From positions 7,936,501-8,000,500 of the forward strand of contig NZ_CP041186.1 in NCBI RefSeq assembly GCF_006517175.1: a stretch of DNA of 64,000 bases. Direction: 5' to 3'. This document shows positions 3,431 through 37,775 of this stretch, in pieces. Position numbers and translations under genes: made by a program. How positions within the stretch are numbered: the first letter of the stretch is position 1; each line of letters opens with the position of its first letter. The notes under the pieces are model-generated. The model saw only the letters and a program-made list of their open reading frames with translations. It ran no database searches and was not told the DNA's origin. The stretch comes from Persicimonas caeni (GTDB taxonomy: Bacteria > Myxococcota_A > Bradymonadia > Bradymonadales > Bradymonadaceae).

Positions 3431-4495
3431 TTGAACCAAACGACCTCTAAATTACTTCCAAGGCTCACCTTTTGGGCGCTCGCGGTGCTCATGATGGTGC
3501 TGTACGGCTGCGGCCGCGACCGCGTCGTCTATAAGTGGAACGAGCGCGTGCTGGCCGCAGGCGAGTTGCAGGACGAAGGGAAGCTCGACGAGGCCGAAGC
3601 GCGCTACAGGAAGCTTCTCGAGTCCTCGCCCGACGCCGACGCGCGCCGCCACGTGCTCAACGAGCTGGGCGCGATTGCCGAGGAGCGGGGCGACTGGAAA
3701 AGAGCGCTCGCCCTCTACAAAAAGGTCTGGACCGAAGAGATCGACGACGAGGCCGGCGGCCACGCGCTGTACCACGCGGCCACGATCGTCGACGAAGAGC
3801 TCGGCCAGACCGAGCGCGGCCTGGCGATGAAGCGCAAGGTCGCCAAGCGCTACCCCAAGTCGGTCTCCGCCGAGTTCGCCGCACGGGACCTGGTCGGGCA
3901 TTACGAGGCCAAGGGCGACTTCGACGCGATGCGTGCGGCCGTCGACGCCTTGTACGAGGACGTCGCCGACACGCCGGTCGCCGACAATATCCTCTTTGCG
4001 GCCGGCGAGTCGCTCGAGGTCGAAGCCAAAGACGAAGACGCCGCCCTGCCCTATTACCGAAAAGTCTACGACACCTACCCGGAGGGCGGCCTAGCCGACG
4101 ACGCGCTGTGGCAAGCGGCGATGATCTATCACCGCCGCCAGCAGTGGGCCCCGGCGATACGCCTGCTCACCCGGCTGGCCGACAACGTCGAGACCTCGTG
4201 GTTCGTGGGGAGCTACAACTCCCCGTGGGCGAACGACGCGCGCTTCGAGCTCGGCTTGATTCACCTGATGTACCTGGACGACTACGACGCCGCCCTGGCC
4301 CACTTCGAGCGCTACTTGGAGGATTTCCCGACGAGCCTGCAGCTCGACGACGCCGGCTGGCATATCGTGCACCTGTATCGGCTCATGGGCGACCAAGAGC
4401 GCTACCGCGAGGCGCTCGGCGAGTTCATCGAGCGCTACCCGGAGAGCCGGTACGTGCGCGATGCTCGCGAACTGCTCGAGGGGGACGGCCAATGA
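3431..4495 (+). CDS. TPR-repeat lipoprotein, first gene of the MCE transport operon
   Basis: 354 residues from a TTG start that supplies a proper n-region (K, R), a hydrophobic stretch and a lipobox ending LYGC, so the mature protein should be lipid-anchored. The first ATG (3491) would cut off most of the signal sequence. The remainder is helical with repeated TPR-like units (for example DEAEARYRKLLESSPD and YDAALAHFERYLEDFP), resembling YfgM/BamD/YbgF-type scaffolds. Its stop overlaps the start of the ATPase gene by 4 nt (ATGA), so translation is coupled. A role as a periplasmic scaffold for the lipid transporter is inferred from position. No strong Shine-Dalgarno is visible, so the exact start is uncertain. 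Confidence 0.75.
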   Translation: MNQTTSKLLPRLTFWALAVLMMVLYGCGRDRVVYKWNERVLAAGELQDEGKLDEAEARYRKLLESSPDADARRHVLNELGAIAEERGDWKRALALYKKVWTEEIDDEAGGHALYHAATIVDEELGQTERGLAMKRKVAKRYPKSVSAEFAARDLVGHYEAKGDFDAMRAAVDALYEDVADTPVADNILFAAGESLEVEAKDEDAALPYYRKVYDTYPEGGLADDALWQAAMIYHRRQQWAPAIRLLTRLADNVETSWFVGSYNSPWANDARFELGLIHLMYLDDYDAALAHFERYLEDFPTSLQLDDAGWHIVHLYRLMGDQERYREALGEFIERYPESRYVRDARELLEGDGQ

Positions 4496-5232
4496 TTCGG
4501 GTCGAAAATATCACCAAATTCCACCTGGGCCGCCCGGTGCTGCGCAACGTGTCGCTCGAGGTACCCGAGGGGTCGAACCTGGGGCTCATTGGCCCTGGCG
4601 GCGCGGGCAAGACGGTCTTGCTCAAGATCATCAGCGGGCTGATTCGCCCCGACGCCGGCAAGGTGTTCATCGGCGACGTCGACGTGCACAGCCTCAAAGA
4701 GACCGAGCTTGCCGAGCTTCGCCAAGACCTGGGGATGCTCTTCCAGAACTACGCGCTCTTCGACTTCATGACCGTCTCGGAGAATATCGCCTTCCCGCTG
4801 CGCCAGGAGGGCGAGGTCGACGACGAGACGATCGATAGGCGGGTCAAAGAGCTGCTCCAGGAGATCGGTTTGCCGACGGCGGCGGACAAATACCCCAACG
4901 AGCTGTCGGGAGGCATGAAGAAGCGCGTCAGCTACGCTCGCGCGGTGATTCAGGCCCCGCCGATTCTGTTCTACGACGACCCTACCGCCGGCCTCGACCC
5001 GGTGACGAGCTCCAAGATCTTCTTGCTGCTTCGGCGCATGCAGGCCGAGTACGGCACGACCTCGATCACCATCAGCCACGACATCGAGGGGATCAAAGAT
5101 ATCTGCGACCGCTTCGCGATGCTCGAACGCGGCGAACTTGTGTTCTATGGTACCCGGGACGACATCGAGACGACGGATCACAGCCTCGTCCGACAGTTCT
5201 GGGACGGCTTTAGCGACGACGAGCTTGGATAA
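4492..5232 (+). CDS. MCE/Mla-type ABC ATPase 1 (Walker B glutamate replaced by Asp)
   Basis: 246-residue ATP-binding subunit of an MlaF/Mkl-type phospholipid transporter. Visible motifs: Walker A GPGGAGKTVLLK, Q-loop MLFQNYALFD, intact signature LSGGMKKR (138-145), Walker B ILFYDD, and H-loop SHD. The usual catalytic glutamate after the Walker B Asp is Asp163 (YDDPTAGLD). This is seen in the degenerate half of heterodimeric ABC proteins. It overlaps the lipoprotein gene by 4 nt and lies 3 nt before the first permease. The second ATPase of this operon keeps its glutamate but has a broken signature, which suggests the two form a heterodimer. Membrane-peripheral, cytoplasmic. Family assignment is firm; heterodimerisation is inference. 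Confidence 0.93.
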   Translation: MIRVENITKFHLGRPVLRNVSLEVPEGSNLGLIGPGGAGKTVLLKIISGLIRPDAGKVFIGDVDVHSLKETELAELRQDLGMLFQNYALFDFMTVSENIAFPLRQEGEVDDETIDRRVKELLQEIGLPTAADKYPNELSGGMKKRVSYARAVIQAPPILFYDDPTAGLDPVTSSKIFLLLRRMQAEYGTTSITISHDIEGIKDICDRFAMLERGELVFYGTRDDIETTDHSLVRQFWDGFSDDELG

Positions 5233-5235
5233 GGA

Positions 5236-6006
5236 ATGCTCAACCCCGTTCGCTACATAGGTGAGAACTTTCTGCGCTGGTGCCACGATATCGGTGGCCT
5301 GGTCATGATGATGGGCAAGGTGTTCATCAACTTTGCCCCGTGGAAGCTCGACAAGCCCCAGATCTGGCGAAATATGTACCGCGTGGGGGTCAAGAGCTTC
5401 CCCATTGTCGTGGTCACCGCGCTCTTGACCGGCGCGATCATGGTCATCCAGAGCGGGCTGTATATCGAACAATACGGCGCGCACGGCCTGCTGGGCTGGG
5501 GCGCGGGCTACAGCGTGCTGCGCGAGGTCGGCCCGATCATGATCGGGCTGATGTTCTCGGGGCGAGTGGGCGCCAACAACACCGCCGAGCTCGGCACGAT
5601 GAAGGTCACCGAGCAGGTCGACGCGCTGCGCGCGCTGGCCATCGACCCGATCAGCTACCTGGTGATGCCGCGCGTCATCGCGATGATCGTCATGATGTTC
5701 CTGCTGGTCATCGTCGGCGACTTCACCGCCCTTCTGGGCGGCGCGGTCACCAGCCAGGTGCTCCTGGGCGTGGACATGAAGCTGTTCGCCTGGAGTATCG
5801 TCACCTACATCGAGTTGGGCGACTTCACCCACGGGCTGTGGAAGGCGGTGGCGTTTGGCTACGCGATCGCCATCATCTCGTGCCACTTCGGCATGAACAC
5901 CAGCGGCGGCGCCGTGGGCGTGGGCCGCGCGGTCAACGCCTCGGTCGTTGGCAGCGCGATCGCGATCTTTGTTTTGGACTACTTTATTACGTTCATGGTG
6001 CTGTAA
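5236..6006 (+). CDS. MlaE-family ABC permease 1
   Basis: 256-residue inner-membrane permease of the MlaE/YrbE family. The family landmarks are visible: a central LREVGPIMIGLMFSGRVG segment followed by ELGTMKVTEQVDALRAL, the conserved coupling region, and a C-terminal SGGAVGVGRAVNASVV loop before the last TM helix. Five to six hydrophobic segments fit the family. It starts 3 nt after ATPase 1 and is followed 4 nt later by a second MlaE paralogue. In E. coli one MlaE forms a homodimer; mycobacterial Mce systems use YrbEA/YrbEB pairs. A heterodimeric pair is therefore likely here. Confidence 0.94.
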   Translation: MLNPVRYIGENFLRWCHDIGGLVMMMGKVFINFAPWKLDKPQIWRNMYRVGVKSFPIVVVTALLTGAIMVIQSGLYIEQYGAHGLLGWGAGYSVLREVGPIMIGLMFSGRVGANNTAELGTMKVTEQVDALRALAIDPISYLVMPRVIAMIVMMFLLVIVGDFTALLGGAVTSQVLLGVDMKLFAWSIVTYIELGDFTHGLWKAVAFGYAIAIISCHFGMNTSGGAVGVGRAVNASVVGSAIAIFVLDYFITFMVL

Positions 6007-6010
6007 GCCC

Positions 6011-6847
6011 GTGGCCAACGAATCCAACAACCAATCCGCCCAACCCGGCCTCGTCGCCCGCGGCCTCGCCAGCATCGGTGCGCCGGTGCTCGAAGTGCAC
6101 CGCACCGTCAAGGACATCTTCCGGGTGTTGTGGCTGACGTTCTACTACATCCTGCACGGCAAGAAGGGAGAGCGGCGACGCAACGAGATCTTCGCCCAGA
6201 TGAACGAGATCGGGAACCGCTCCCTGGTGTTCATCGCGGTGACGCTGGGCTTTTTGGGGATGATCCTCATCTTTCAGGCCGGCTACCAGGCCAACAAGAT
6301 CACCGGCGACCTGCAATTGCTGGGCGCCCTCTTCTTGCAGCTGTTGTTGCGCGAGTTCGCCCCCACCATCACGGCCATGATGATCGCCACGCGCGTGGGC
6401 ACCGGCATGGCCGCCCAGATCGGCTCGATGGTGGTCACCGAGCAGGTCGACGCACTGCGCATGAGCGGCGCGCAGCCCATCGATTATCTGGTTGTGCCCC
6501 GCTTCATCGCCTCGACGGTGATGATGGTCGTGCTGACAATATTTGCTGTACTCGTTTCATATATCGCTGGGGCGCTCACCGCCTATTCGTTCTTCGGCCT
6601 GAACCTGCGAACCTTCTTCGATCTGTCGATGATCGGCTGGTTCGACATCAATATCGGGTTGGTCAAGGCCGTCGCGTACGGAATGGCTGTGCCTGTCACC
6701 GCCTGCCAAGCCGGTCTTTCGGTCGTCGGGGGAAGCGAAGGCGTCGGACAAGCCACCACTCAGGCGGTCGTCAACGCCAGCCTCGCCGTGGTCATCCTCG
6801 ACTTCATCATCTCGGGGTTGGGTTACGTCGTACTGGCGTTTTTGTGA
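6011..6847 (+). CDS. MlaE-family ABC permease 2
   Basis: 278 residues from a GTG at 6011, giving N-terminal VANESNNQ. This start avoids the overlap with permease 1 that a longer reading from 5948 would create. It carries the MlaE hallmarks LREFAPTITAMMIATRVGTG, IGSMVVTEQVDALRMSG and GGSEGVGQATTQAVV, and differs clearly from permease 1, including a longer cytoplasmic N-terminus rich in charged residues. Two non-identical permeases in one operon with a single MCE protein suggest a YrbEA/B-like heterodimer. The GTG start has no obvious Shine-Dalgarno, consistent with coupling to the gene before it. Confidence 0.92.
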   Translation: MANESNNQSAQPGLVARGLASIGAPVLEVHRTVKDIFRVLWLTFYYILHGKKGERRRNEIFAQMNEIGNRSLVFIAVTLGFLGMILIFQAGYQANKITGDLQLLGALFLQLLLREFAPTITAMMIATRVGTGMAAQIGSMVVTEQVDALRMSGAQPIDYLVVPRFIASTVMMVVLTIFAVLVSYIAGALTAYSFFGLNLRTFFDLSMIGWFDINIGLVKAVAYGMAVPVTACQAGLSVVGGSEGVGQATTQAVVNASLAVVILDFIISGLGYVVLAFL

Positions 6848-7122
6848 ACGGAAGAACGGAGGCGTCGGCCTTGCAAGGTTGACGTCCGCTATTTGGGGCG
6901 CCTGAACTGCGGCGCGGAACTACAATTTGAGGGTCGTTTCAATGCGGCTTTTGTGATGGGTGAGGCGACCCTCTAATCGTTGTTTCGTGAGGGCGTTGTT
7001 TGCCCTCGCCCCTAATAGCAGGCGCTACTGGCCTGCAAGACCATCATCGAAAGAAGCATCAATTATCGAGAGAAGTCTCAATTACCAGAAGCGCCAATTT
7101 CTTGATCTCGGGGGGGGACCAC

Positions 7123-7794
7123 ATGGCACGCAACAAACCTAAAGCGACACATCAGACTTTGCTCAGACTCCTCTCGACATTCCTCTTGGCGGCGGCGCTG
7201 GCCCTGCCCGCAGCGGCCAACGCGCAGTCGGTCAAACTCCCCAAGAAGGGGATGCAGTATTTCACCTTCGGATTGAGCCTCAATCCGGGGTTTCTGTACG
7301 ACGACACCGCCGAGATGCGCGGCGTACCCAACGCCTCGGCCGCCGCGGCGAGCATGGCCCAGATTGGCGTGACCCAAATCGTGACGCGCACCTTCTACAT
7401 GAGCGCCGAAGCGCAGGCCGGACTGCAGTGGCTCAACGACAACACCGCCGACAAAGACGGCAACGCGCCGTCGTCGACGAACTTCGCCTGGCAGTTGGGC
7501 CTCTACATGAATTGGCTTCCGCTTGGAGAAGAGCTAGGATTCGTGACCACCGGCGGCATCCAACTCTTTCAGGCGCACCTCGACGACGCCCCGCTGCAGA
7601 TTCTGGGCGGCGAGCTTCGCGTGGGAAAATATATCTGGACCGCGGAAGAAGACTTCTTGCTCGTTCAGGCCGGCTACACCGCCCCGTTTATCCAAGGCCT
7701 CGACCGGCCCACCGAGTTTGGCGAGACCTCCGAGTGGTCTGACCGCAACTGGTCGTTCCACCGCTTCAGCATCGGCTTTCAGTACGGGTTCTAA
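7123..7794 (+). CDS. Secreted beta-rich envelope protein between the permease and ATPase genes
   Basis: 223 residues from the ATG at 7123, preceded by a run of seven G that can act as Shine-Dalgarno. Longer readings from 7000 add non-conserved sequence. Residues 1-35 form a signal peptide (basic n-region, LLSTFLLAAALALP, cleavage near AANAQS). The mature part is rich in alternating aromatic and small residues and ends in GFQYGF, an aromatic terminus typical of outer-membrane barrels. I do not recognise a named family. It ends 5 nt before ATPase 2, so it belongs to the MCE operon and could be an outer-membrane partner of the MCE bridge (inference). Confidence 0.75.
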   Translation: MARNKPKATHQTLLRLLSTFLLAAALALPAAANAQSVKLPKKGMQYFTFGLSLNPGFLYDDTAEMRGVPNASAAAASMAQIGVTQIVTRTFYMSAEAQAGLQWLNDNTADKDGNAPSSTNFAWQLGLYMNWLPLGEELGFVTTGGIQLFQAHLDDAPLQILGGELRVGKYIWTAEEDFLLVQAGYTAPFIQGLDRPTEFGETSEWSDRNWSFHRFSIGFQYGF

Positions 7795-7799
7795 GGACG

Positions 7800-8555
7800 A
7801 TGGGTAGTATCGAGTTCAAAGGCATCTACAAGAGCTTCGGCGACAAGCATGTGCTTCGCGGCGTGGACCTGACGGTCAAACCCGGCGAGGTGATGTTCAT
7901 CATCGGGCAGTCCGGCGCGGGAAAGAGCGTGCTGGTCAAGCACCTGGTCGGCCTGCTGCGCCCGGACAGAGGAAGGGTCTACCTCGACGGCGTCGACGTG
8001 ACCGACTTCACCGAAAAGGAGTTCTATCCCATCCGCAAACGCTGCGCGATGGTGTTCCAGAACTCGACGCTCTTCGACTCGATGACGCTCGTAGAGAACG
8101 TGATGCTCCCCATCCGCAAGCACCGCAAGGTGACTGACGAGGAAGCCCACTCGCAGGCGATGGAGCAGTTGCAGAAGGTCGGCATGCAGCGCTACGCCGA
8201 CCGCTACCCGGCTGATTTCGGCGATGGCATGCGCAAAAAGGTCGCGATTGCGCGGGCGCTGACCCTCGACCCCGAGTACGTCATCTTCGACGAGCCGACC
8301 ACCGGCATCGACCCCATCTCGGCGGCGATGGTCGACAAGCTCATCCGCCACCTCGCCGACAATCTGGGCGTGACCAGCATCGTCATCTCCCACGATTTGC
8401 GCAGCATCTTTGGCATCGCCGACCGCGTCGCCATGCTCTACAAGGGTGAGTTGGCCGAGGACGGCACCCCCGAGGACTTCAAGAAGAGCACCAACCCGGT
8501 GGTCCAGCAGTTTATCCACGGCCGCCCGGAGGGCCCGATGGAGGAGCCGAACTGA
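7800..8555 (+). CDS. MCE/Mla-type ABC ATPase 2 (degenerate signature motif)
   Basis: 251 residues, MlaF-like. Walker A GQSGAGKSVLVK, Q-loop MVFQNSTLFD, Walker B VIFDEP with catalytic Glu165, and H-loop SHD are all intact. The ABC signature, normally LSGGM, reads FGDGM (140-144). This defect complements that of ATPase 1, which has a normal signature but lacks the Walker B glutamate. Paired, they would give one normal composite site (Walker B of ATPase 2 with signature of ATPase 1) and one degenerate site. It lies 5 nt after the barrel-like gene and 88 nt before the MCE gene. Confidence 0.93.
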   Translation: MGSIEFKGIYKSFGDKHVLRGVDLTVKPGEVMFIIGQSGAGKSVLVKHLVGLLRPDRGRVYLDGVDVTDFTEKEFYPIRKRCAMVFQNSTLFDSMTLVENVMLPIRKHRKVTDEEAHSQAMEQLQKVGMQRYADRYPADFGDGMRKKVAIARALTLDPEYVIFDEPTTGIDPISAAMVDKLIRHLADNLGVTSIVISHDLRSIFGIADRVAMLYKGELAEDGTPEDFKKSTNPVVQQFIHGRPEGPMEEPN

Positions 8556-8643
8556 GGCCCTCAGGTGACACGACAGTTGCGCTCCAGTACCTTCTGGACC
8601 AAGATAAGCCGTACTAAAAACTCTCAACAACGCAGTTGGTTAA

Positions 8644-9693
8644 ATGCAGAACAAAGAAACCGCCATCGAAGTCAAGGTGGGCGCCCTGGTGCTCTTCTCG
8701 CTCGGCCTGCTCGTAGCCTTCGTGCTCGTGCTGGGCGATTTCTCGTTCTCGGACGAGTTTACCTTTCACGTCGATTTCGAAAACGCCGGGGGTCTGAAGC
8801 CCGGCGCGGACGTGGCCATCGCCGGCATCAACGTGGGCAACGTCGAGAGGCTGGAGTTCCAGCCCAACAAGGGCAACGAGGGTCAGCCGGCCGTCGAGGT
8901 GCGCGCCACCCTGCGCATCAGCCCCGACTATGCGGACGCGGTGCGCCAGGACAGCGAGTTCTTCATCACCCGCCGCGGCGTGCTCGGCGAGCCGTATATC
9001 GAGATCGAGACGAACTCGTTCGACGCCCCGCAGGTCGAAGAAGGCGCGGTGCTACGCGGCGTTCAGCCGCCGCGCATGGATGTCATCGTGGCCAAGGCGA
9101 CCGAGCTGCTCGACACACTCGACGATCTGCTCAGCGACCCGGACATCCCGGCCTCCGAGCTGATCGGCAACGCCGCCTCACTGATGGGCAACCTCGACAA
9201 AGTCATCGTCGACAACCGCCAGGACATCGACGGCACCATCGAAGGGGCGCGCATGTCGACACAGGAGGCCGCCAAGCTGCTCCAGGCGCTCAATTATGCG
9301 GTCGAGGAAGGCGAAACCCTGCGCCGCACCCTCGCCGATGCACAGGCGACGGCGGCCAACGCGCGCGCCATTTCGAGCAAGGTCAACGGCCAGGTCGACC
9401 CGGTCATCGCCGACGTCCGAGCCGCCACCGAGAACGCGCGCAAGGTCAGCGAGACGGCCGCGCGCGTGCTGGGCGACAACGAGCAGAAGCTCGACGAATC
9501 GATCGCCAACGTTCACGCCAGCACCGAAGACTTGAAGAATATCTCCGAGGGCGCCAGCACGGTCGTGGGGCGCATCGAGTCGGGTGAAGGCACCGTCGGT
9601 CAGCTCCTGGCCGACCGCGAAATGTACGATGATATGAAAGAGTTGCTGCGCACCATCAAGCGCCGGCCCTGGAAGATTATCTGGAAGGAATAG
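8644..9693 (+). CDS. MCE-domain substrate-binding protein (MlaD-like)
   Basis: 349 residues. A short cytoplasmic N-terminus and one TM helix (about 13-33, VLFSLGLLVAFVLVLG) are followed by an MCE domain (about 38-145, with VDFENAGGLKPGADVAIAGI and a RRGVLGEPYIEIE strand). A long helical region then contains repeated Asn/Ala/Asp heptads, ending in the GEGTVGQLLAD motif frequent in MCE-protein C-termini. MCE proteins form hexameric rings or tubes carrying lipids between the membranes. This is the only MCE protein in the operon, so it should serve both permeases. Last gene of the MCE operon; the next gene is convergent. Confidence 0.93.
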   Translation: MQNKETAIEVKVGALVLFSLGLLVAFVLVLGDFSFSDEFTFHVDFENAGGLKPGADVAIAGINVGNVERLEFQPNKGNEGQPAVEVRATLRISPDYADAVRQDSEFFITRRGVLGEPYIEIETNSFDAPQVEEGAVLRGVQPPRMDVIVAKATELLDTLDDLLSDPDIPASELIGNAASLMGNLDKVIVDNRQDIDGTIEGARMSTQEAAKLLQALNYAVEEGETLRRTLADAQATAANARAISSKVNGQVDPVIADVRAATENARKVSETAARVLGDNEQKLDESIANVHASTEDLKNISEGASTVVGRIESGEGTVGQLLADREMYDDMKELLRTIKRRPWKIIWKE

Positions 9694-13978: not shown

Positions 13979-16156
13979 TCACGCCTCCGCCGAGGCCGCC
14001 GCGAGTGATCTCGGGTCGCCCTCCCCCGCGTCGGATTCCGGCCGGGGCGACGGTTTCGCGCTCCCCTTCCCTCGGGTCCATCTACGAATGAAGAAGCCGC
14101 CGACGGCGAAAAGCCCCACAATGCCGACCAACACCACCAGGCTCACCAAGTCAGGGTTGGCGATGAAGTCGGCCAGCTCGTCTCCGAACAGGCCCTTGAG
14201 GATGATGCCGGGGGTCATTCCGATGAGCGTGCCCCACATAAAGTCCCGCAGGGGGATGCGCGAGGAGCCCACGGCGAGGTTGACGACGCCATACGGAGCC
14301 ACGGGGACCATGCGCACTGCGACCACTGACCACACGCCGCGCTCGGCGACCCAGGTATGGATCTGACCAAAGCGCTTTCCGGCGATTTTTCCGACGCTAT
14401 CTGCACCAATCGCGTTACCGATTCCATAGGAGGCCGCCGCGCTCAACATGGCGCCGATCAGTCCGTAGAGCGAGCCCCACAACGCCCCGAAGATAAAGCC
14501 CATCGCCAGGATGAGAACACTGGTGGGAAAGGCGAGCACGCTGAGCGCGACGAAGGTGAGGATCGCGAGCGGCACGGACCACCACGATTGCGAGATGGGC
14601 TCGACCATCATCGCCAAGTTGCGCGGGCTGGCCCACTCGCCGAGCGGGGTCCAGTGCCACAACGCAGCAAGCACGACGAGCACGGCCAGCAGCCCGACCA
14701 GCCCGGCGTAGTTGATGCTCGTGCGTTTTTCATGAGCCGGCAACAGCCGCTTGGCGACTTGTTCGGCGTGCCACGGCGTCTCGGGGTCTAGGAGGCGCTC
14801 GTCTGCCCACTGACTCGCCGTCTCCGGGGAGATGTCGAGATGGAGCGGCACGAGCCGGCGCTCGCCACTTTGGTGGGCGTCGAGTACGGAGACCAGCGAG
14901 CCGCCGGATTCGATTTGCTCGGCCACCTGGTCGGGACTGAGTCCGAGATGGTGGCCAAGCAGGCGGTTGCGCACGTGGGTAATCTGTTGTCGGGTGTGCT
15001 CATCGTGCGCCTCGAGCACGAAATCGCACTCGCTGTCTACACCCAGCGAGCGGTTCGACAGGTTGGCGGAGCCGATATGGAGCAGACGATCGTCGACCAC
15101 ACAGATCTTGGCGTGCACGTAGACCTTCTTGCAGTCGCCGTCGTCTTCGACCTCCGGATGAACGATGCGAAAGCGATCATGCTCATCAGCCTCGCGCAAC
15201 CGCTCGACGGCTCGAGCTCGCAGGGAGTCGAGGGTCGCCTCCTCGATCATGCCGGCGGCGTCCTCGGGAACGATGATCACGATCTCGGGTCCGTCTTCCT
15301 CTTCGAGCCGCCGCGCGAGCCCGTCGGTGAGCTTCGACGACGACAGATATTGGCTCTCCAAGTAGATTTGGTCTTGGGCTGCAGCGAACGAATCGAGAAA
15401 GAGCGCCTCAATTTCGCGCACCTCCTCCTCTACGAGCCACTCGGGTAAGGTGCGCGCGATGCCGACCTCGACATCCTCGAAGTCAGGCTCGAGGTCGCCC
15501 GGCCACAGCCCCTGACGAGGCTGCGCCGCCTCGATTTGCTCGTCGAGCGCATGCTGCCAACGCCAACGCGCGAATTTGGCGACCTCGCGAGCGGCGTCAC
15601 CGTTGAAGACGGTGTGGGCATCGTGAAACGGATCGAAGCTCAACCGATTGGGGGTTTGGCGACGCTCGTCGTGAACTCGATGCTCAGCCGTATCCCAGCG
15701 CCGCTGGGCTATGTCGATACCTCCGACAAACGCCAACGAGTCGTCCACCGTCACGATCTTTTGGTGATGGGACGTCCCCATCGGCGCGGTCTCGTCGTGG
15801 GCGAACTCGACGTTGTCGGGTGCCTTTTGCCAAAACCGCAATCGCTGCATCATCTCGCGCTCGAAGCTGTAGATGATGTCCTCTTCCCAGACCAGCACCC
15901 GCACCTTTAGCTCGGGGTGCTCGCGAGCGCAGTCGTTGATGAGTTGCAACAGGTCGCGCGCGTCGTCGTCCCGTCGGCGCATCCGAACGCGCGAGTGGAT
16001 ATCCCAGCCGATGATCACAATCGACTCGCGGGCCAATTCGAAAGCGTCGGCGACGACCTCGAAAAACGTGGCCGTGTCGTCGAGCACCGACGCGCGTTGG
16101 GCCATCGCGGTCTGCCAGCAGTTTTCGCCGGCTCTGAGAATGTGCGAGTCAGTCAT
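13979..16156 (-). CDS. Phospholipase D-like protein fused to a VTT (SNARE-associated/DedA-like) membrane domain
   Basis: 725 residues from the ATG at 16156; a reading from 16300 adds 48 unlike residues. The N-terminal half is a PLD-superfamily enzyme with two HKD motifs, HQKIVTVD and HAKICVVD, each followed by a family-typical segment (VGGID; IGSANLSNRS), as in cardiolipin synthases and PLDs. The C-terminal half (about 505-690) has five to six TM helices with the VTT signature region (FGALWGSLYGLIGAM and VRMVPVAPYGVVN). VTT proteins act as lipid scramblases. The fusion is known in other bacteria and likely remodels phospholipids. It forms a two-gene unit with the EEP hydrolase and is divergent from Ku. 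Confidence 0.92.
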   Translation of the reverse strand: MTDSHILRAGENCWQTAMAQRASVLDDTATFFEVVADAFELARESIVIIGWDIHSRVRMRRRDDDARDLLQLINDCAREHPELKVRVLVWEEDIIYSFEREMMQRLRFWQKAPDNVEFAHDETAPMGTSHHQKIVTVDDSLAFVGGIDIAQRRWDTAEHRVHDERRQTPNRLSFDPFHDAHTVFNGDAAREVAKFARWRWQHALDEQIEAAQPRQGLWPGDLEPDFEDVEVGIARTLPEWLVEEEVREIEALFLDSFAAAQDQIYLESQYLSSSKLTDGLARRLEEEDGPEIVIIVPEDAAGMIEEATLDSLRARAVERLREADEHDRFRIVHPEVEDDGDCKKVYVHAKICVVDDRLLHIGSANLSNRSLGVDSECDFVLEAHDEHTRQQITHVRNRLLGHHLGLSPDQVAEQIESGGSLVSVLDAHQSGERRLVPLHLDISPETASQWADERLLDPETPWHAEQVAKRLLPAHEKRTSINYAGLVGLLAVLVVLAALWHWTPLGEWASPRNLAMMVEPISQSWWSVPLAILTFVALSVLAFPTSVLILAMGFIFGALWGSLYGLIGAMLSAAASYGIGNAIGADSVGKIAGKRFGQIHTWVAERGVWSVVAVRMVPVAPYGVVNLAVGSSRIPLRDFMWGTLIGMTPGIILKGLFGDELADFIANPDLVSLVVLVGIVGLFAVGGFFIRRWTRGKGSAKPSPRPESDAGEGDPRSLAAASAEA

Positions 16157-16332
16157 CAAAATCCCACGTCGAAGGCGCAATCTTCTCGCGCTCCTCAATG
16201 TAAACGTCGGTCTTGCTGCTGCAATGCAGCAGCGCCACAGCCCGGCGACCTTGCCGGAAAGCGATCGCTGTGAAGATTTGACGCCGTAGGCGGTGTGCAC
16301 TGCTCACTTCCCCACTCGCTCGAGGAGTCGCC

Positions 16333-22019: not shown

Positions 22020-23933
22020 ATGACTCAGCAAACCGACTCCGACAACAACGACGCCGACAAGCCGTCGGTGGACCGAACGGTTCGCAACCGCAAGCTGTGG
22101 GAGTATTTCTCGCGCTACAAGGGCTGGTTTGCCATCGGCGCGGTCTTTCTGGGGCTGACCAATATTCTCAACCTGGCCATCCCCGCCTATATCGGCGACG
22201 CGGTGCAGATGATGCGCGACGCGGTCGGCGGTGAGGGGCTTGGCACCGTTCGCGGCGACCTCATCGACATCGGCTTGATGATCATCGCGCTGGCCATCGG
22301 CGGCGGTATCGCGCGGGTGTTCAGCCGCATCTTCATCTTCAACGCCGGGCGCCACATCGAGTTCGACGTACGCAACGAGATGTACAGCAAGCTCGGCACG
22401 CTCAGCGCCAAGTTCTTCAACGGGATGCCCACCGGCGATATCACCAGCCGGTCGGCCAACGACGTCAGCTATATCCGGCTGCTGTACGCCATCTCGTTTC
22501 TGCACGTCATCAACACCACCATCGCCTACAGCATCGCCATGTCGCGCATGGCCGACATCAGCTGGAAGCTCACGCTGGTCTGTCTGGTGCCCTACCCGGT
22601 CATCCTCTACTTCCTGCTGATGATCATGCGCGCGCTCTTTCGCCAAACGAAGATCGTGCAGGCGCAGATGTCGGACATCTCGACGAAGGTCCAGGAGAAC
22701 CTGGGCGGCGTGTCGGTGGTCAAATGCTACGCCATCGAGGACCGCGAGAAGGAGTCCTTCGGCCTGATGAACGAGGACTACTACGGCAAGAGCATGAAAC
22801 TGGCGACCATCCGCGGCGGCATGCAATCGCTGATGACCCTGGTCGCCGGCGTGGGCACCTTTGCGGTGCTCATCGTGGGCACGGGCATGGTCATCGACGG
22901 GGATTTGAAGCTGGGCGCGTTCGTCGAGTTCAACTCCTACGTCGTCGCCCTGGCCTTCCCGACCATCGCGATGGGCTGGGTCTTCTCGGTGTGGAACCGA
23001 GGGCTCGCCGCCTTCGACCGCGTGCTCGAGATCCTGCAGATCGAGCCCGCTGTCCTAGACCCCGCGCCCGACGAGCAGCGCGAACTCCCCGCGCTCATCC
23101 CGGGCGAGAAGCGCGGCGCGGTCCGCCTCGAGAACGTCTCGTTTGCGTACCCCGATGAAGACGAGCCGGTACTTCGCGACATCGACATCGACATCGAAGC
23201 CGGTTCGACCGTCGCCATCGTCGGTCGCACAGGCTCGGGCAAAACCACCTTGGTCAAGCTCATCTCGCGGCTGTACGACCCGACCGAAGGCACCGTGTAT
23301 ATCGACGGAGAGCCGCTGCCGAAACTGCCCCTTCGCGACACCCGCAGCGAAGTCGGGTTCGTGTCGCAAGAGCCGTTTTTGTTCTCGATGACCATCGGCC
23401 AGAACGTGCGCTTCGGCGTCGACGCGCTCGAGTACGACGAGACCGTCCACCGCGAGCCCCCGACGCGAGCGCTGCTCACCGGGGACAAGCGCGAGGACGT
23501 CTCGCAGCAAGAGCGCATCGAGCAAGCCGTGCGCGTGGCCGGGCTCGAGCCGGACATCAAGGGCTTCACCAAGGGCCTCGACACCCTCGTGGGCGAGCGC
23601 GGCGTGACGCTGTCGGGCGGCCAGAAACAGCGCGTGACCATCGCGCGCGCCCTGCTCGTCGACCCGCGCATCCTCATCCTCGACGACGCCCTGTCGAGCG
23701 TGGACACCAAGACCGAGGAGGTCATCCTCGACCACCTCGACGAGCTGATGGCCGACCGCACGAGCATCATCTTGACTCACCGCTTCAACGCTCTGGCCCG
23801 GGTCGACAAGATCTTCGTGCTCGAGGACGGCCGGGTCGTCGAAGCCGGCTCCCACGACGAGTTGCTCGCCAAGGGAGGCACCTACGCCGAGATGTGTGAG
23901 CGCCAGCGCCTCGAGGAGAGTTTGAAGTCGTGA
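22020..23933 (+). CDS. ABC exporter half-transporter A (permease-ATPase fusion, degenerate catalytic site)
   Basis: 637 residues: six-TM exporter domain (about 35-330) followed by an ATPase domain (about 370-625). Walker A GRTGSGKTTLVK and signature LSGGQKQR are intact. Walker B reads ILILDDALSSVD, with Asp where the catalytic glutamate normally is. This is the usual sign of the degenerate half in heterodimeric exporters such as TM287/288, LmrCD and MdlAB-type. The stop overlaps the partner gene by 4 nt (GTGA). Possible cargo: lipid, drug or peptide; not determinable. Confidence 0.93.
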   Translation: MTQQTDSDNNDADKPSVDRTVRNRKLWEYFSRYKGWFAIGAVFLGLTNILNLAIPAYIGDAVQMMRDAVGGEGLGTVRGDLIDIGLMIIALAIGGGIARVFSRIFIFNAGRHIEFDVRNEMYSKLGTLSAKFFNGMPTGDITSRSANDVSYIRLLYAISFLHVINTTIAYSIAMSRMADISWKLTLVCLVPYPVILYFLLMIMRALFRQTKIVQAQMSDISTKVQENLGGVSVVKCYAIEDREKESFGLMNEDYYGKSMKLATIRGGMQSLMTLVAGVGTFAVLIVGTGMVIDGDLKLGAFVEFNSYVVALAFPTIAMGWVFSVWNRGLAAFDRVLEILQIEPAVLDPAPDEQRELPALIPGEKRGAVRLENVSFAYPDEDEPVLRDIDIDIEAGSTVAIVGRTGSGKTTLVKLISRLYDPTEGTVYIDGEPLPKLPLRDTRSEVGFVSQEPFLFSMTIGQNVRFGVDALEYDETVHREPPTRALLTGDKREDVSQQERIEQAVRVAGLEPDIKGFTKGLDTLVGERGVTLSGGQKQRVTIARALLVDPRILILDDALSSVDTKTEEVILDHLDELMADRTSIILTHRFNALARVDKIFVLEDGRVVEAGSHDELLAKGGTYAEMCERQRLEESLKS

Positions 23934-25822
23934 GTGACGAAGCCAAACACAACAAGGCCGACAGCTCGAAGCCAGCGAAGCCAGAGAAGCAAGAGAAGTC
24001 AGAGAAACAAGATCGGCCCAAAGACGCCGCCATCGGCTCCGGCTTCAAAGAGCAGAAGCTCGGCAACGTCACCGATGCCACGCTCATCAAGCGGCTGTGG
24101 ACGTTCATGCGTCCGTACCGCTTCACCTTCCTGCTCTGCCTTCTGCTCTTGCCGGTACTCGCCGGCTTCAAGCTCGTCCAGCCGCACCTCTTGCAGGTGG
24201 CCATCGACGATTACCTCGTCCCAGGCGAGTACGGCGGGCTGACCTGGGTCATCGCTGCGTTCGGCGCGGCGGTCTTCTTGCAGGCCGGCACGGGCTTTTT
24301 GCAGTTCTACCTGATGCAGAAGGCCGGCCAGCGCGCGCTGTACGACCTTCGCCAAAAGGTCTTCGACCACGTGCAGTCGCTGTCGGTGAACTTCTTTCAC
24401 CGCCACCCGACCGGCCGGCTGATGACGCGCATGACCACCGACGTCGAATCGCTCCAGGAGGCGCTCTCCTCGGGCATGATTACGATGATCGGCGACATCA
24501 TCATGCTGGTGGGCATCGTCGTCATCTTGCTGCTCAAGGACTGGAAGCTCGCGCTCGTCAGCTTCACGGTGGTGCCCTTTCTGGCGGTATTGACCGCCAT
24601 CTTCCGCCACTTTCTGCGCAAGGCCTTCCGCGAGATTCGCGTCAAGATCGCCCGGCTCTACGCGCACCTGCAGGAGTCGGTGACCGGCATCGAGATCATC
24701 CAGCTCTTTGTGCGCGAGAACGTCAGCGCCGAAGAATACCGCGACATCAACGAGGATTATCGCGACGCCAACGTCCTGTCGATTCGCTACGACGCCATGC
24801 TCTACGCGGTCGTCGAGGCGGTCGGCGCGATCAGCGTGGGCGCGATCATCTGGTACGGAAGCGGCCAGGTGCTCGACGATATCCTGACCATCGGTGTGCT
24901 CGTGGCGTTCATCGAGTACATGCAGAAATTCTTCGTGCCCATCCGCGACCTCGCCCAAAAGTACAACCTTTTGCAGAGCGCGATGGCCAGCAGCGAGCGC
25001 ATCTTCGAGCTGCTCGACTCCGACGACCAGATCCCGCAGCCCGACAACCCCAAGCCGCTGCCCGACGAGCCGCTGCATATCGAGTTCGAGAACGTCTGGT
25101 TCGCCTACAACGACGACGAATGGGTCATCAAAGACCTGAGCTTCGAGGTCAAATCGTGCGAGAAGGTCGCGCTGGTAGGCCACACCGGCGCAGGCAAGAC
25201 GACGATCATCAGCCTGCTGATGCGCCTGTACGACGTCACCCGGGGACGCATCCTCATCAACGGGATCGACATCCGCGAGTTCGACCTGCACGCCTACCGC
25301 CGCGCGTTCGCCGCGGTGCTGCAGGACTCGTTTTTGTTCCAGGGGAGCATCCGCGAGAACCTGACGCTGGGCGAGGAGAGCATCACCGACGACGAGCTCG
25401 TCGAGGCCGCCAAGATCGTGCACGCCCACCCGCTCATCTCGCGCTACGCCGACGACTACGACCACCGCATCGCCGAGCGCGGCTCGAACCTGTCGTCGGG
25501 CGAAAAGCAACTGCTTTCGTTCGCCCGCGCGCTCGTCCAGAAGCCCGAGATCCTCATCCTCGACGAGGCCACCGCCAACGTCGACACCGACACCGAAGCG
25601 ATCATCCAGGACGCCATCGACAAGCTGATGGCCCGCCAGACCTCGGTCGTCATCGCCCACCGCCTGTCGACCATCCAGAAGGCCGACCGCATCATCGTCT
25701 TGCACAAAGGCGAGATCATGGAGCAAGGCACCCACCACGAGTTGCTCGAGCACGGCGGCCACTACGAGACGCTCTACCGGCTCCAATACGCCTTCGACGC
25801 GGACGCGCAGGCGGCTGAGTAA
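23930..25822 (+). CDS. ABC exporter half-transporter B (permease-ATPase fusion, catalytic half)
   Basis: 630 residues from a GTG overlapping the stop of half-transporter A. A charged Lys/Glu/Ser-rich N-terminus (about 1-50) precedes six TM helices (about 60-345) and the ATPase domain. Walker A GHTGAGKTTI, Walker B ILILDEATANVD with the catalytic glutamate, H-loop AHRLS. The signature reads LSSGEKQ instead of LSGGQ, a mild change common in the catalytic subunit of such pairs. With half A it should form a heterodimeric exporter in the inner membrane. Confidence 0.93.
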   Translation: MSDEAKHNKADSSKPAKPEKQEKSEKQDRPKDAAIGSGFKEQKLGNVTDATLIKRLWTFMRPYRFTFLLCLLLLPVLAGFKLVQPHLLQVAIDDYLVPGEYGGLTWVIAAFGAAVFLQAGTGFLQFYLMQKAGQRALYDLRQKVFDHVQSLSVNFFHRHPTGRLMTRMTTDVESLQEALSSGMITMIGDIIMLVGIVVILLLKDWKLALVSFTVVPFLAVLTAIFRHFLRKAFREIRVKIARLYAHLQESVTGIEIIQLFVRENVSAEEYRDINEDYRDANVLSIRYDAMLYAVVEAVGAISVGAIIWYGSGQVLDDILTIGVLVAFIEYMQKFFVPIRDLAQKYNLLQSAMASSERIFELLDSDDQIPQPDNPKPLPDEPLHIEFENVWFAYNDDEWVIKDLSFEVKSCEKVALVGHTGAGKTTIISLLMRLYDVTRGRILINGIDIREFDLHAYRRAFAAVLQDSFLFQGSIRENLTLGEESITDDELVEAAKIVHAHPLISRYADDYDHRIAERGSNLSSGEKQLLSFARALVQKPEILILDEATANVDTDTEAIIQDAIDKLMARQTSVVIAHRLSTIQKADRIIVLHKGEIMEQGTHHELLEHGGHYETLYRLQYAFDADAQAAE

Positions 25823-31881: not shown

Positions 31882-33144
31882 TCACTCTTTTGCGTCGCCT
31901 TTGCGGCGGGTGACCTTCAGGGCGCGGCGGTCGAGTTCGCGTTCGACGTCGCGCAGGCTCACGCCTGCTTTGGTGGCGGCGACGAGGGCGAAGTAGAGGA
32001 CGTCGGCGGTCTCCCAGGTGACTTCGTCTTTGGTGTCCGCCTCGGCGAGTTCGCGGGCTTCTTCGAGGAGCTTCTTGCCCAGAAGCTCGGGGTCTTCGAA
32101 GAGTCGCTTCGTATAGGAACCTTCCGGGGCGTTCTCGAGGCGGCTCTGCAGCGTGCGCTCGAGGGCGGTGAGCCCGTCGTCGTCGCCCCAGCAGGTGCGC
32201 GTGTCTTTGTGGCAGAAGCCGGGCCCGTGCTGGCGCACGCGGAAGCGAACCGCGTCGGAGTCGCAATCGAGGTCGATGCTCAGCAGGTCCTGGGTCGCCC
32301 CGCTCGTCTTGCCTTTGACCCACAGGCCGCGCGAGCGCGACTGGTAGACTCCCTGCTGCAGGTCGACGGCCTCGCGCAGGCTCTCGTCGCTCGAGTAGGC
32401 TAGGCCCAGCGCCTTGCCGTATTCGTCGCACACCACCGTCGGGTAGAGCCCGTCGGGGCGGTCGGAGCTAATCGGCGCGCAGATAGCGTCGGCCAGGTGA
32501 ATCTTGTCGGTGTAGAGCGCCATGCCCACCTGGGCGTCGACGCCCAGCTTGTGCAGCGCGGCGAGCTCGTCGAGCGTGCTCACGCCGCCGGCGACCGTCA
32601 GGTGAGCGTCGCCGGCTGCTTCGAGCAGCGCCTCGACGCGCTCGAGGTCGGTGCCCTCCAGGCGCCCTTCGCGCTCGACGAAGGTGACCATGAAGCCACC
32701 GACATACTCGCGAAGCTCCTCCATGCGCTCGACCACCCCGCGGCCCGTCTTGGTCTGCCAGCCCTCCACAACGACCTCGCCGTCGACCGCGTCGAGCGCG
32801 GCGATGACGCGCTCGGGCGGAAGCTCGCGCAGGATCTCCGGCCTGGCGGCGGTGCCCAGAATGATCTTGTCGGCGCCGGCGTCGAGCCACTCGATGGCGG
32901 TGTCGACGTCGCGGATGCCGCCGCCCACGCGGACTCGGCCCATCGAGCACAGCTCGCGGATGAGCTCTTTATTCGAGCCCTTGCCGAGCGCGGCGTCCAG
33001 GTCGATCACGGCGACGTCGCCGGCGAGGCGAAACTTCTCCATGATCGGGCGCGGGTCGCCGGCGTCGACTTCTTTGTCTTCGGCTTTGCCGCCTACGAGT
33101 TGGACGGCGTTGCCGTCCATGATGTCTATGGATGGGATGATCAT
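31882..33144 (-). CDS. hisAIE: Trifunctional HisA-HisI-HisE fusion (HIS4-like)
   Basis: 420 residues. Residues 1-220: HisA-type beta-alpha barrel (ProFAR isomerase) with Asp7 in IIPSIDIMDG and VRVGGGIRD. Residues 228-320: HisI (PRA-CH) with SRSRGLWVKGKTSG, DCDSD and GFCHKDTRTCW supplying the Zn cysteines. Residues 325-420: HisE (PRA-PH) with EEARELAEA and WETADVLYFAL. It thus performs the second to fourth steps of histidine synthesis if all domains are active. The HisI-HisE part (DRPDGLYPTVV, ENAPEGSYTKRLF, LKVTRRKGDAK) strongly resembles fungal HIS4 from memory. The HisA loop reads TFVEREG (154-160) where I expect TDxxRDG, so HisA activity deserves testing. Confidence 0.92.
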   Translation of the reverse strand: MIIPSIDIMDGNAVQLVGGKAEDKEVDAGDPRPIMEKFRLAGDVAVIDLDAALGKGSNKELIRELCSMGRVRVGGGIRDVDTAIEWLDAGADKIILGTAARPEILRELPPERVIAALDAVDGEVVVEGWQTKTGRGVVERMEELREYVGGFMVTFVEREGRLEGTDLERVEALLEAAGDAHLTVAGGVSTLDELAALHKLGVDAQVGMALYTDKIHLADAICAPISSDRPDGLYPTVVCDEYGKALGLAYSSDESLREAVDLQQGVYQSRSRGLWVKGKTSGATQDLLSIDLDCDSDAVRFRVRQHGPGFCHKDTRTCWGDDDGLTALERTLQSRLENAPEGSYTKRLFEDPELLGKKLLEEARELAEADTKDEVTWETADVLYFALVAATKAGVSLRDVERELDRRALKVTRRKGDAKE

Positions 33145-34573: not shown

Positions 34574-35161
34574 TCACAACACTCCTTTGGTGCTCGGCAC
34601 GTCGTCGGTCCCGGTGCGGGCGACGGCCTTTCGAAGAGCAATCGCCATCGCCTTGAAGGCAGCTTCGGCCCGGTGGTGGTCGTTGTCGCCGCGCAGCACG
34701 TCGACGTGAATCGCCGCGCGCGCCTCCATGGCGAACGATTGGAAGACATGGCCGATATTCTCGCAGGCCAGCTGGCCGATCGACTCACGCTTCAGCCCCA
34801 GGTTGACGACTGCGTAGGGCCGGCCGGACAGGTCGACGACGACGCGGGCGAGCGCCTCGTCGAGCGGGGCGTAGGCGTGGGCGAAGCGCTCGATGCCGCG
34901 GCGCTCGCCGAGCGCCTCGTGAAAGGCACGGCCCAGCGCCAACGCGCAATCCTCGACGGTGTGGTGGTCGTCGACCTCCAGGTCACCGTCGCACTCGAGC
35001 TGCAGGTCGAAGCGGCCGTGCTTGGCCATCGCGCCCAACATATGATCGTAGAAGCCGATGCCCGTCGAGATGTCGGACGTGCCCTCTCCGTCGAGGTTCA
35101 GGCGTAGCCGAATATCGGTCTCGCGGGTGGTTCGCTCGATTCTGGATTCACGACTGCTCAT
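34574..35161 (-). CDS. hisB: Imidazoleglycerol-phosphate dehydratase (monofunctional)
   Basis: 195 residues, the length of the single-domain enzyme; no HAD phosphatase domain is attached. Metal motifs [13 protein letters not shown] and [13 protein letters not shown], and [19 protein letters not shown] overlaps the stop of the hisC/HAD gene (ATGA). Confidence 0.97.
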
Positions 35162-36873
35162 GGCAAATACTCCTCGAGTTCGTCGACGCCGTGCAACACG
35201 ACCGCGCAGCCCGAGCGGGTCAGCGCCGGCTCGAGCACGTTGTGGTCGTGGCCGGGCGCGATCATGCCGATGGGAAGCACGCGCGCGCCGCGCGCGGCCT
35301 TGGCGTCGTCGGGTGTGTCGCCCACGAGCCAACCGGTACGCGCGTCGAGCCCTTCCAACAAGAGTTCGACCGGCTCCGGGTCGGGCTTGAGCTTGGCATC
35401 TTCCATGCAGACGACCGCGCCGAAATACTCGGCGATGCCCTTCTCGCTCAAAAAGCGCTCGGCGTCCTTGCGCGGCCGCCCGGTCACGATGCCGAGCTTG
35501 TAGCGCTCGGCCAGCGAGGCCAAGTACTGAGATTCACACAGCAGCGATTCGGTGCGCCGAAGCCCGGGCTCCTCTTCGGTGCCCTGATAGATCTGCTCGA
35601 AGCGCTCGGTCACCTCGTCCAGGCTCGCCTCGACACCGCGCTCGGCGAGCATGCGCCGGGTCAGAATCCAGTCGTTGTTGGCGTCGCCGGCGGCCTTGGC
35701 CTCGGAGATGTCTTCGGGGGTGAGCTCGACGCCGAACGACTCGGCCGTAGCGACGATCGATTTGCGGTACGACTGGGAGACGTCGGCCAGAACGCCGTCG
35801 AGGTCGAAGAGGATCGACTCGGGGGCGAAGATCGTGTCGATCGCGTGCTGCAAGCGCTCGAAATTGGCCTCGTCGCCCGGGCAGGTGATGCGCAGCGCGT
35901 CGTCGAGCAACTCGTTGCCCGGAAAGGCGCGCACCATGATGCCCATGCCGGCCAGTGCATCGCGCACCCAGAGGGCGTCGTCGGTGCGCGCGAACACGAA
36001 ATTCCCCTGCGACGGCGTGACACGAAGCCCCGCCTCGCTCAGGCGCGCCTCGAGTGCGCCGCGCTCCTCTTTGACGCGTTCGACAAACGAGGCGACCCGG
36101 GCGTCGCCCTCCTCGAGCCTGCGCGCCACAAAGGCGAGCGAGGGACCCGAGACCGCGTACGGCAGGCCGGCGGTGTGCATCCAGTCGATGACCTGCGGGC
36201 TGCTCAACGCGTAGCCGACGCGCACGCCGGCCATGCCCCACGCCTTCGACATCGTGCGCGTGACGACCGTGTTCGGGTACTCGAGGGCGACCTGGGTGAG
36301 GTTCTCCTCGCCGAACTCGACGTAAGCGTGGTCGACGATGACGAGCGCGTGCGGCGCGGCTTCGGCGATGCGACGCACGTCGTCTGCAGTCGCCACGGCG
36401 CCTGTCGGGTTATTCGGGCTGACGATGGCCACCAACGTGGTCTGGTCGTCGATGGCGTCGAGGACCGCCTCGGTCGGATACTCCGGCCCCTCCCAGGGCA
36501 CCGAGACGACCTCACCGCCGGCCCGCGCGGCGAACCGGCGAAACATGACGAACGTCGGCTCGGGCAGCACCATATTGCGGCCCGGGGCGAGCAGCGCCCG
36601 GCAGATGCGGTCGAGCGCGTCGTCGGCGCCGGCGGTCACGATGACCTGCTCGCGGTCGACCCCCTCGCGCTCGGCGATGAGCTCTTCGAGCGGCTTGGCG
36701 TTGGGGTAGTCCCGGAGCAAGTCGACGCCGCGCTCACCGAGCGCGTCCAACACGGTGTCGGTGGGCGCCGGCCCCTCATTGCCGTGGAGGTACAGGTCGA
36801 CCGGAATCTCCGGGCGCGGCACCGAATAGGCGGTGATGCCAGTGATGGCTGGGGATGGTTTGAGTTTTGGCAT
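35158..36873 (-). CDS. hisC: Histidinol-phosphate aminotransferase fused to HAD-type phosphatase
   Basis: 571 residues from the ATG at 36873. Residues 1-345: fold-type I aminotransferase, with PLP Lys in [16 protein letters not shown] and [10 protein letters not shown]. Residues about 350-571: HAD hydrolase with [11 protein letters not shown] (nucleophile and acid Asp), [10 protein letters not shown] (motif II), [12 protein letters not shown] (Lys) and [11 protein letters not shown]. Since no other histidinol-phosphatase is present in the operon and hisB is monofunctional, the HAD domain likely does that step, directly after the aminotransferase reaction. Fusion of a HAD domain to another histidine enzyme is known (E. 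coli hisB). The fusion order here is seen in the sequence; its activity is inferred. Confidence 0.92.
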
Positions 36874-36884
36874 GGGTTCGCCGT

Positions 36885-37775
36885 TCAAGGAACAATCTGA
36901 GCCAACGAAGTCACCACGATATCCGTCCCGCCATGCTCTTTGAGCTCGGGAATGACCGTCGGCAACACGTCGCGCGGCACGGCCGCTTTGACCGCATAGC
37001 CCGACTGACTGTGCAGCGGCGAGATGGTCGGCTCGCGCATGCACGGCAGGACATCGACGAGCTCGTCGAGGCGGTCGGCGGTCACGTTGACCTCGACCAT
37101 GACGCGAGCGCGCGCCTCGAGCACCGAGCGAAGCACCATGACCAGCCGGTCGACGGCTTCTTTCTTGTCGGGGTCCTCGAGTACGTCGGGGTGGGCGTAC
37201 AGCCGCGTCGACGAGGTCATCAGCTCACCGACGACCTCCAGATCGTTGGCTTCGAGCGTCGAGCCGGTCGCCGAGTTGTCGACGATGCAGTCGGCATCCT
37301 CGGGCGGGAAGACCTCGGTGGCGCCGAAGGACTTGACCACGCTGGCGTCCAGCCCCTCGTCTTCGATCCACTGCTCGGTCAGGCGCACGTACTCCGAGGC
37401 GATGACCAGGTGACGGTCGGGCAAGCCGCCGTCGTGGGCGTCGAGCAGCTCGCGCGGGGCGGCGGCGACCAGACGCACCGGGTCGAGGCCGGTGTCGAGC
37501 ACCTCGACGAGCTCGGCGTCGAGCTCGGCGACCCAGTCGGCGCCGGCAAAGCCGATGTCTCGCGATCCCAGATGGAGCATCTCGACGATATTCTGCGGCT
37601 TGAGCAGCTTGACCTCGACGCCCTCGAGCGAAATCTTGGGACGATAATTGCGGCTGCCGTGATGCAGACGGATGCCGGCTTCGGCCAGAAGGTCGAAGAC
37701 GGCCGTTTTCATGTGGCCTTTGGGCAGAGCGAGGCGAAGTAGCGGGGTTTCTTGGGTTTCGTCGCGGGCAGGCAT
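36885..37775 (-). CDS. hisG: ATP phosphoribosyltransferase, long form
   Basis: 296 residues, long HisG with a C-terminal regulatory domain (about 220-296), so histidine feedback inhibition is likely and no HisZ is needed. Landmarks: RLALPKGHMKTAVFDLL, DIGFAGADWVAEL, IVDNSATGSTLEAN. AGGAG Shine-Dalgarno 7 nt before the ATG. First gene of the histidine operon; it lies 11 nt before hisC/HAD. Confidence 0.96.
   Translation of the reverse strand: MPARDETQETPLLRLALPKGHMKTAVFDLLAEAGIRLHHGSRNYRPKISLEGVEVKLLKPQNIVEMLHLGSRDIGFAGADWVAELDAELVEVLDTGLDPVRLVAAAPRELLDAHDGGLPDRHLVIASEYVRLTEQWIEDEGLDASVVKSFGATEVFPPEDADCIVDNSATGSTLEANDLEVVGELMTSSTRLYAHPDVLEDPDKKEAVDRLVMVLRSVLEARARVMVEVNVTADRLDELVDVLPCMREPTISPLHSQSGYAVKAAVPRDVLPTVIPELKEHGGTDIVVTSLAQIVP

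Follow-up and report, generated by a model that had tools for sequence, protein, structure and literature searches.

MCE transporters carry lipids between bacterial membranes, and both the direction of transport and its coupling to ATP use are debated. In dimers of ATP-binding cassette (ABC) proteins each ATP site is composite, being built from the Walker A and Walker B motifs and the H-loop of one subunit and the signature motif and D-loop of the other. In E. coli, MlaF is a homodimer and the substitutions E170Q and K47A abolish its function (PMC7367683). The structure of the mycobacterial Mce1 system shows a YrbE1A-YrbE1B permease heterodimer and a MceG homodimer (PMC9882608). In TM287/288 the consensus site carries out most or all of the hydrolysis, and the degenerate one maintains contact between the ATPases (PMC5216877). 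In a survey of 1083 genomes for Mla systems MlaF was excluded from the phylogeny, its annotation being uncertain, and several duplications in Gracilicutes were reported (PMC10665443). Here we describe an operon at positions 3431-9693 of a 64,000-nucleotide stretch of Persicimonas caeni DNA (contig NZ_CP041186.1, positions 7,936,501 to 8,000,500), which is called the window below and in which all positions are counted. The window is part of an 8.05 Mb single-contig genome whose closest named relatives are Lujinxingia and other members of the Bradymonadia (Myxococcota). The seven genes of the operon are co-directional and are arranged in the order TPR lipoprotein, ATPase F1, permease E1, permease E2, beta-barrel, ATPase F2 and MCE protein. 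The sequence comparisons given below make it highly likely that they encode an MCE-type (MlaFED-like) lipid ABC transporter with an obligate heterotetrameric F1-F2-E1-E2 core, a ring of one MCE protein and a single hydrolytic site.

Like E. coli MlaFEDB and Veillonella parvula MlaEFD, which are type VIII ABC transporters, this operon encodes an MlaE-family permease, an MlaF-like ATPase and an MCE protein together, and like that of V. parvula MlaEFD it is without mlaB (PMC10665443). None of mlaA, mlaB and mlaC was found among the genes at 3431-9693. It differs from both systems in the addition of the TPR lipoprotein and the beta-barrel, and whereas E. coli MlaFEDB has two equal ATP sites (PMC7367683), here there are two unequal ATPases and two permeases. 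It shares with Mce1 the presence of two different MlaE-family permeases, but Mce1 has one homodimeric ATPase and six Mce proteins whereas this operon encodes a single MCE protein alongside two ATPases. The actinobacterial arrangement of a YrbEA/YrbEB pair, one ATPase and six MCE proteins was thus not found here, and the permeases of the two kinds of system form separate clades. The likeness to the heterodimeric exporters TM287/288, TAP and BmrCD is in the ATPases, where the Walker B Glu is missing from one subunit and the signature from its partner, which leaves a consensus site and a degenerate site. However, in those exporters an ABC_membrane domain is fused to the ATPase, whereas F1 and F2 carry no such fusion and are separate chains encoded with MlaE-family permeases. 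When this DNA was first annotated from its letters alone (the first-pass annotation), TAP and TM287/288 were named as parallels; the parallel holds for the logic of the ATPases but not for the membrane domains, since E1 and E2 are MlaE-family proteins. At 22020-25822 (+) the window itself encodes two adjacent ABC exporter half-transporters that have a TM287/288-like asymmetry, the first with LSGGQ and a Walker B Asp (DDALS) and the second with LSSGE and Glu (DEATA), and these allow the MCE pair to be compared with an exporter pair from the same DNA. A search of the open-access full-text literature, which did not cover subscription papers and preprints, found no description of unequal ATPases in an MCE system.

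Complementary motif losses in F1 and F2

In P. caeni F1 the Walker A motif is GPGGAGKT, the signature is LSGGM, Walker B is YDDPT and the H-loop is ISHD. The corresponding motifs of F2 are GQSGAGKS, FGDGM, FDEPT and ISHD, and in both ATPases Walker A, the Q-loop and the H-loop look normal. The first-pass annotation had reported two MlaF-like ATPases, two MlaE-like permeases and one MCE protein, with LSGGM and Asp163 in F1 and FGDGM and Glu165 in F2. The coordinates and the Pfam matches agree with this gene set and the residues, when read again, were exact. A chance or sequencing oddity or a frameshift as the source of this split was ruled out because the identical split was seen in every relative that was read.

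The operon was followed in a sample of 286 Myxococcota genomes in which F2/E2 orthologues were separated from ordinary MlaF/MlaE by score and motifs were called from alignments. The tandem-permease operon was found in nearly all sampled relatives in the family and the order and in many in the class, and in every class-level operon that was read F1 had LSGGM (ISGGM in one) with DDP and F2 had [FIV]GDG[ML] with DEP. In other Myxococcota lineages F1 has kept the Walker B Glu and lost the H-loop His (ISSD for ISHD), and the fourth Gly of Walker A is often gone as well (GPGASGKS), so that many relatives have an F1 in which the H-loop His or the Walker A Gly is damaged, either with the Walker B Glu still in place or in addition to its loss, a variation that the first-pass annotation did not describe. 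Not one of 92 F1 sequences had both the Walker B Glu and the H-loop His, and 91 of the 92 had the SGG signature. The F2 signatures were diverse (GDG, SDG, GPS, GPG, GAG, NQS, NIS and others). In all 73 Myxococcota genomes in which both ATPases were readable, the F1 half-site was damaged, the F2 signature was broken and the Walker A Gly, Walker B Glu and H-loop His of F2 were intact; the F1 signature was SGG in 72 of these genomes and AGG in the remaining one. As a control, ordinary single-permease MlaFs were canonical in 28 of 28 cases, and four further canonical ones were read in Bdellovibrionota. The one control MlaF of 29 that appeared to be broken (ISYGM) was L243, a Bdellovibrionota F2 that had been misassigned by score.

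When changes were counted on trees from which the motif columns had been excluded, which gives minimum numbers, F1 had changed at least 5 times at Walker B, at least 7 times at the H-loop and at least 6 times at the Walker A Gly, and there were zero changes at these positions in 76 F2 sequences. The signature had changed at least 15 times in F2 and once in F1, and the D-loop GLDP was invariant in F1 and variable in F2. The damage is thereby confined to the site that would be made of Walker A, Walker B and the H-loop of F1 with the signature and D-loop of F2, and the partner site is spared save for one conservative Ser to Ala change. F1 is the faster-evolving gene, the mean column entropy being 1.84 for F1 and 1.54 for F2. 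Independent decay of two homodimers would not be expected to place all the losses on one composite site and to leave the F1 D-loop invariant though F1 evolves faster.

In Bdellovibrionota, which was reached via an Oligoflexia contig, the operon is compact and has the order F1-F2-E1-E2-MCE. There F1 has an ISGGM-like signature, DDP at Walker B (DSP in one and DEP in three) and N, S or T in place of the H-loop His except in the DSP case, and F2 has S[YF]G (SYV in one), DEP, and SHD or THD. All 14 readable pairs follow the same rule of complementary defects; in the fifteenth N lies over the signature, the apparent defect of the L246 F2 being an assembly gap of N. The first-pass annotation had suggested checking whether the defects always lie on opposite paralogues, and in 73/73 Myxococcota genomes and 14/14 Bdellovibrionota pairs the two ATPase chains did have complementary motif losses on one composite site. 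In trees made after removal of the motif columns, the F1 sequences of both phyla formed one clade (Shimodaira-Hasegawa-like approximate likelihood ratio test, SH-aLRT, 97) and the F2 sequences of both formed another (92), where rows L234-L243 of the ATPase tree, labelled 'myx', are from Bdellovibrionota. E2 was one clade across both phyla (97-98), and E1 of the two phyla formed a single branch in one of the trees but was not resolved in another. These alignments and trees establish F1 and F2 as ancient paralogues that have been inherited together and in which every loss of a catalytic motif is on one composite site, and they indicate that the F1/F2 duplication is most likely older than the divergence of Myxococcota and Bdellovibrionota. 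Separate duplications in the two phyla are unsupported by the ATPase tree.

Co-occurrence and distribution

F2 and E2 were each found in 115 of the 286 Myxococcota genomes and jointly in 112 (Fisher p 8e-72, uncorrected for kinship). There were six exceptions, three each way. Two of them (G172 and G195) are F1-containing drafts of 88-90% completeness, in a third (G174) F2 is cut by a contig end, and the remaining three are drafts with 86-87% completeness. F1 was present in 35 of the 36 genomes searched for it, unlinked cases included, and a fragment was found in the 36th. Relatives with only one ATPase of the pair had been named in the first-pass annotation as evidence that would speak against its proposal, and no complete genome of that kind was seen among those sampled. 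In one group of genomes (f12) the operon is split, with F1, the TPR gene and E1 on one contig, E2 alone on a second, and F2 and the MCE gene on a third; in G061 the contigs have lengths of 138, 504 and 139 kb. F1 is separate from the rest of the operon in further groups too. That the F1/F2 pair has been retained and has stayed complementary despite the splitting of the operon argues against one of them being a mere hitch-hiker in the operon.

In samples of Pseudomonadota (200 genomes), Bacteroidota (80) and Cyanobacteriota (59), the best loci for the E2 profile were single permeases, but this does not prove absence, as the two-phylum E2 profile does not separate E2 from ordinary MlaE (which reaches up to 1e-70) and score alone is no proof. 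The ATPases in reach at those loci had LSGGM, DEP and His. Six single MlaFs of Pseudomonadota (L266, L268, L270, L271, L273 and L274) have the Glu and the His, but DEPL[AT] comes after Walker B and the H-loop ends in HS or HN and not HD. Permease pairs are present in Actinomycetota, where YrbEA/B fall outside the E1 and E2 clades.

The proposed heterodimeric motor and its alternatives

These data make it almost certain that F1 and F2 form a heterodimer, in which they would pair head to tail. The asymmetric heterodimer put forward in the first-pass annotation is thus supported by defects that lie on opposite paralogues and on one composite site, and by the co-occurrence of F2 and E2. Given a heterodimer, one of its ATP sites would very probably be hydrolytic and the other degenerate. 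ATP would be hydrolysed at the site formed by the Walker A motif, Walker B Glu and H-loop His of F2 with the signature and D-loop of F1, and the site formed by Walker A, Walker B and the H-loop of F1 with the signature of F2 would bind ATP with little or no hydrolysis. The degenerate site might then act as a clamp or regulator by which the ATPases are held together between strokes, as in TM287/288. Two unequal and co-conserved genes of each kind argue against the ATPase and the permease being pairs of identical chains, and F1, F2, E1 and E2 are very likely parts of a single complex that has one MCE ring. The E1/E2 heterodimeric permease could tie a motor with one stroke per cycle to an asymmetric handling of lipid, and the TPR lipoprotein, together with the beta-barrel in the nearest relatives, could be outer-envelope partners. 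That lipid is the cargo is inferred from the family alone.

The presence of two ATPases and two permeases could also mean that the operon encodes two homodimeric transporters with two weakened sites apiece, in which F1 and F2 each work with a different permease. Single motif changes are tolerated by some ABC ATPases, but we regard this explanation as very improbable since it does not account for at least a dozen independent changes that all fall on one composite site, nor for why neither copy persists alone, nor for the fact that most operons have a single MCE gene. In an F1 pair both sites would be without the catalytic Glu or His and in an F2 pair both would be without the signature, and because the Walker B Glu (E170) of E. 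coli MlaF is essential, F1 homodimers should be inactive. It is just as doubtful that the motor is an F2 homodimer, with F1 as a regulator outside it that was captured in the manner of a pseudo-enzyme, or the reverse. The missing catalytic residues and the faster evolution of F1 (entropy 1.84 versus 1.54) would fit a regulator, but F1 has retained exactly what the partner site needs, namely SGG in 91 of 92 sequences and an invariant D-loop, and F2 lacks a usable signature everywhere, so that an F2 homodimer would be without a normal site. An E1-E2 permease pair might also exchange its ATPases, so that mixed populations of dimers arise, by analogy with the Mce1 structure in which YrbE1A-YrbE1B is combined with a MceG homodimer (PMC9882608). 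We consider this extremely unlikely here, as MceG is a single ATPase gene of canonical type whereas neither F1 nor F2 can form a normal homodimeric site, and the actinobacterial permease pairs are on a separate branch. That one ATPase is a decaying duplicate can practically be dismissed because, although F1 evolves faster, both reading frames are open and conserved across two phyla, and the signature and D-loop are the most conserved motifs of this faster copy.

Some points weigh against the F1-F2 heterodimer with a single hydrolytic site. The heterodimer is deduced from sequence, the structure predictions having covered single chains, and a Walker B Asp or an H-loop Ser does not necessarily abolish hydrolysis fully, so that the second site may keep some activity. 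The per-genome counts are not independent, and the counts made on trees are lower. The labels F1 and F2 in Bdellovibrionota were assigned from the motifs, although gene order, with F1 first, and profile scores are concordant with them. The operon probably represents a widespread class of MCE transporters that predates the Myxococcota/Bdellovibrionota divergence and has an obligate heterodimeric ATPase, a single hydrolytic site and a heterodimeric MlaE permease. If so, MCE transporters would have their first known example of an asymmetric motor, in a group that is large and old, occurring across Myxococcota and also in Bdellovibrionota, among them probably the genetically tractable Bdellovibrio bacteriovorus. 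A natural transporter in which one ATP site is live and the other silent, and whose permease has two different halves, would give a handle on the role of each ATP site and of each permease half.

Operon genes and neighbouring loci

Table 1. Genes of the P. caeni operon, with positions in the window.
Gene	Position	Strand	Remarks
TPR-repeat lipoprotein	3431..4495	+	Lipobox LYGC; TPR families in Pfam; probable envelope partner, function inferred
ATPase F1	4492..5235	+	LSGGM at residues 138-142, D-loop intact; Asp163 for Walker B Glu; F1 clade spans two phyla
MlaE-family permease E1	5236..6006	+	Pfam PF02405, 239.8 bits; in E1 clade
Second, divergent MlaE-family permease E2	6011..6847 (about)	+	PF02405, 198.1 bits; E2 clade of Myxococcota and Bdellovibrionota
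Small beta-barrel gene	7123..7794	+	Signal peptide and 8-stranded OmpA/OmpW-type outer-membrane beta-barrel (AlphaFold2 and Foldseek)
ATPase F2	7800..8555	+	FGDGM at residues 140-144 (broken signature); Walker A, Glu165 and H-loop His198 intact
MCE (MlaD-like) protein	8644..9693	+	Pfam PF02470, 62.9 bits

The genes are closely packed (Table 1). Those of the lipoprotein and F1 overlap by the 4 bases ATGA at 4492-4495, the E1 gene begins directly after F1, and the E2 gene, which probably starts with GTG at 6011, lies 5 bases past the end of E1. Both permeases are well above the PF02405 cut-off of 22.5 bits and the MCE protein is above the PF02470 cut-off of 25.1 bits, which places them in the MlaE and MCE families, respectively. 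ABC_tran was the only domain found in F1 and F2, and both are MlaF-like; among NCBIfam models MlaF was the top one for F2 and within the top five for F1, both under the equivalog cut-off. Annotation conceals the system, since the matches of both ATPases are confined to general ABC ATPase families. Two other MlaE loci are present in the P. caeni genome, with one permease apiece.

The MCE protein has one transmembrane helix, one MCE domain and about 200 C-terminal residues that are predicted with low confidence to be helical. Its AlphaFold2 model had a mean predicted local distance difference test (pLDDT) score of 50 and was confident in the MCE domain alone, and the length of a needle cannot be inferred from it. 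The beta-barrel protein had no match in Pfam or NCBIfam, but its AlphaFold2 model (mean pLDDT 83) matched OmpA, OmpW and NspA in Foldseek. The gene, which the first-pass annotation did not name, lies between E2 and F2 in the nearest relatives only, and its sequence is poorly conserved. A relative of the TPR lipoprotein was directly upstream of F1 in 43 of the 96 loci with room upstream, split operons included, and this protein may be an unrecognised subunit; a role of the lipoprotein or the beta-barrel in the passage of lipid is a guess.

A second lipid-related gene lies near the transporter at 13979-16300 (-) and encodes phospholipase D domains with a C-terminal VTT (DedA-like) membrane domain; its 3' end is overlapped by an endonuclease/exonuclease/phosphatase gene. 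Farther along the window, a single frame at 31882-33144 (-) that adjoins histidinol dehydrogenase combines His_biosynth (HisA/HisF type), PRA-CH and PRA-PH domains. Near the histidine genes, at 35158-37044 (-), a class I/II aminotransferase and a HAD-type phosphatase are joined in a single frame, possibly a fused HisC and phosphatase.

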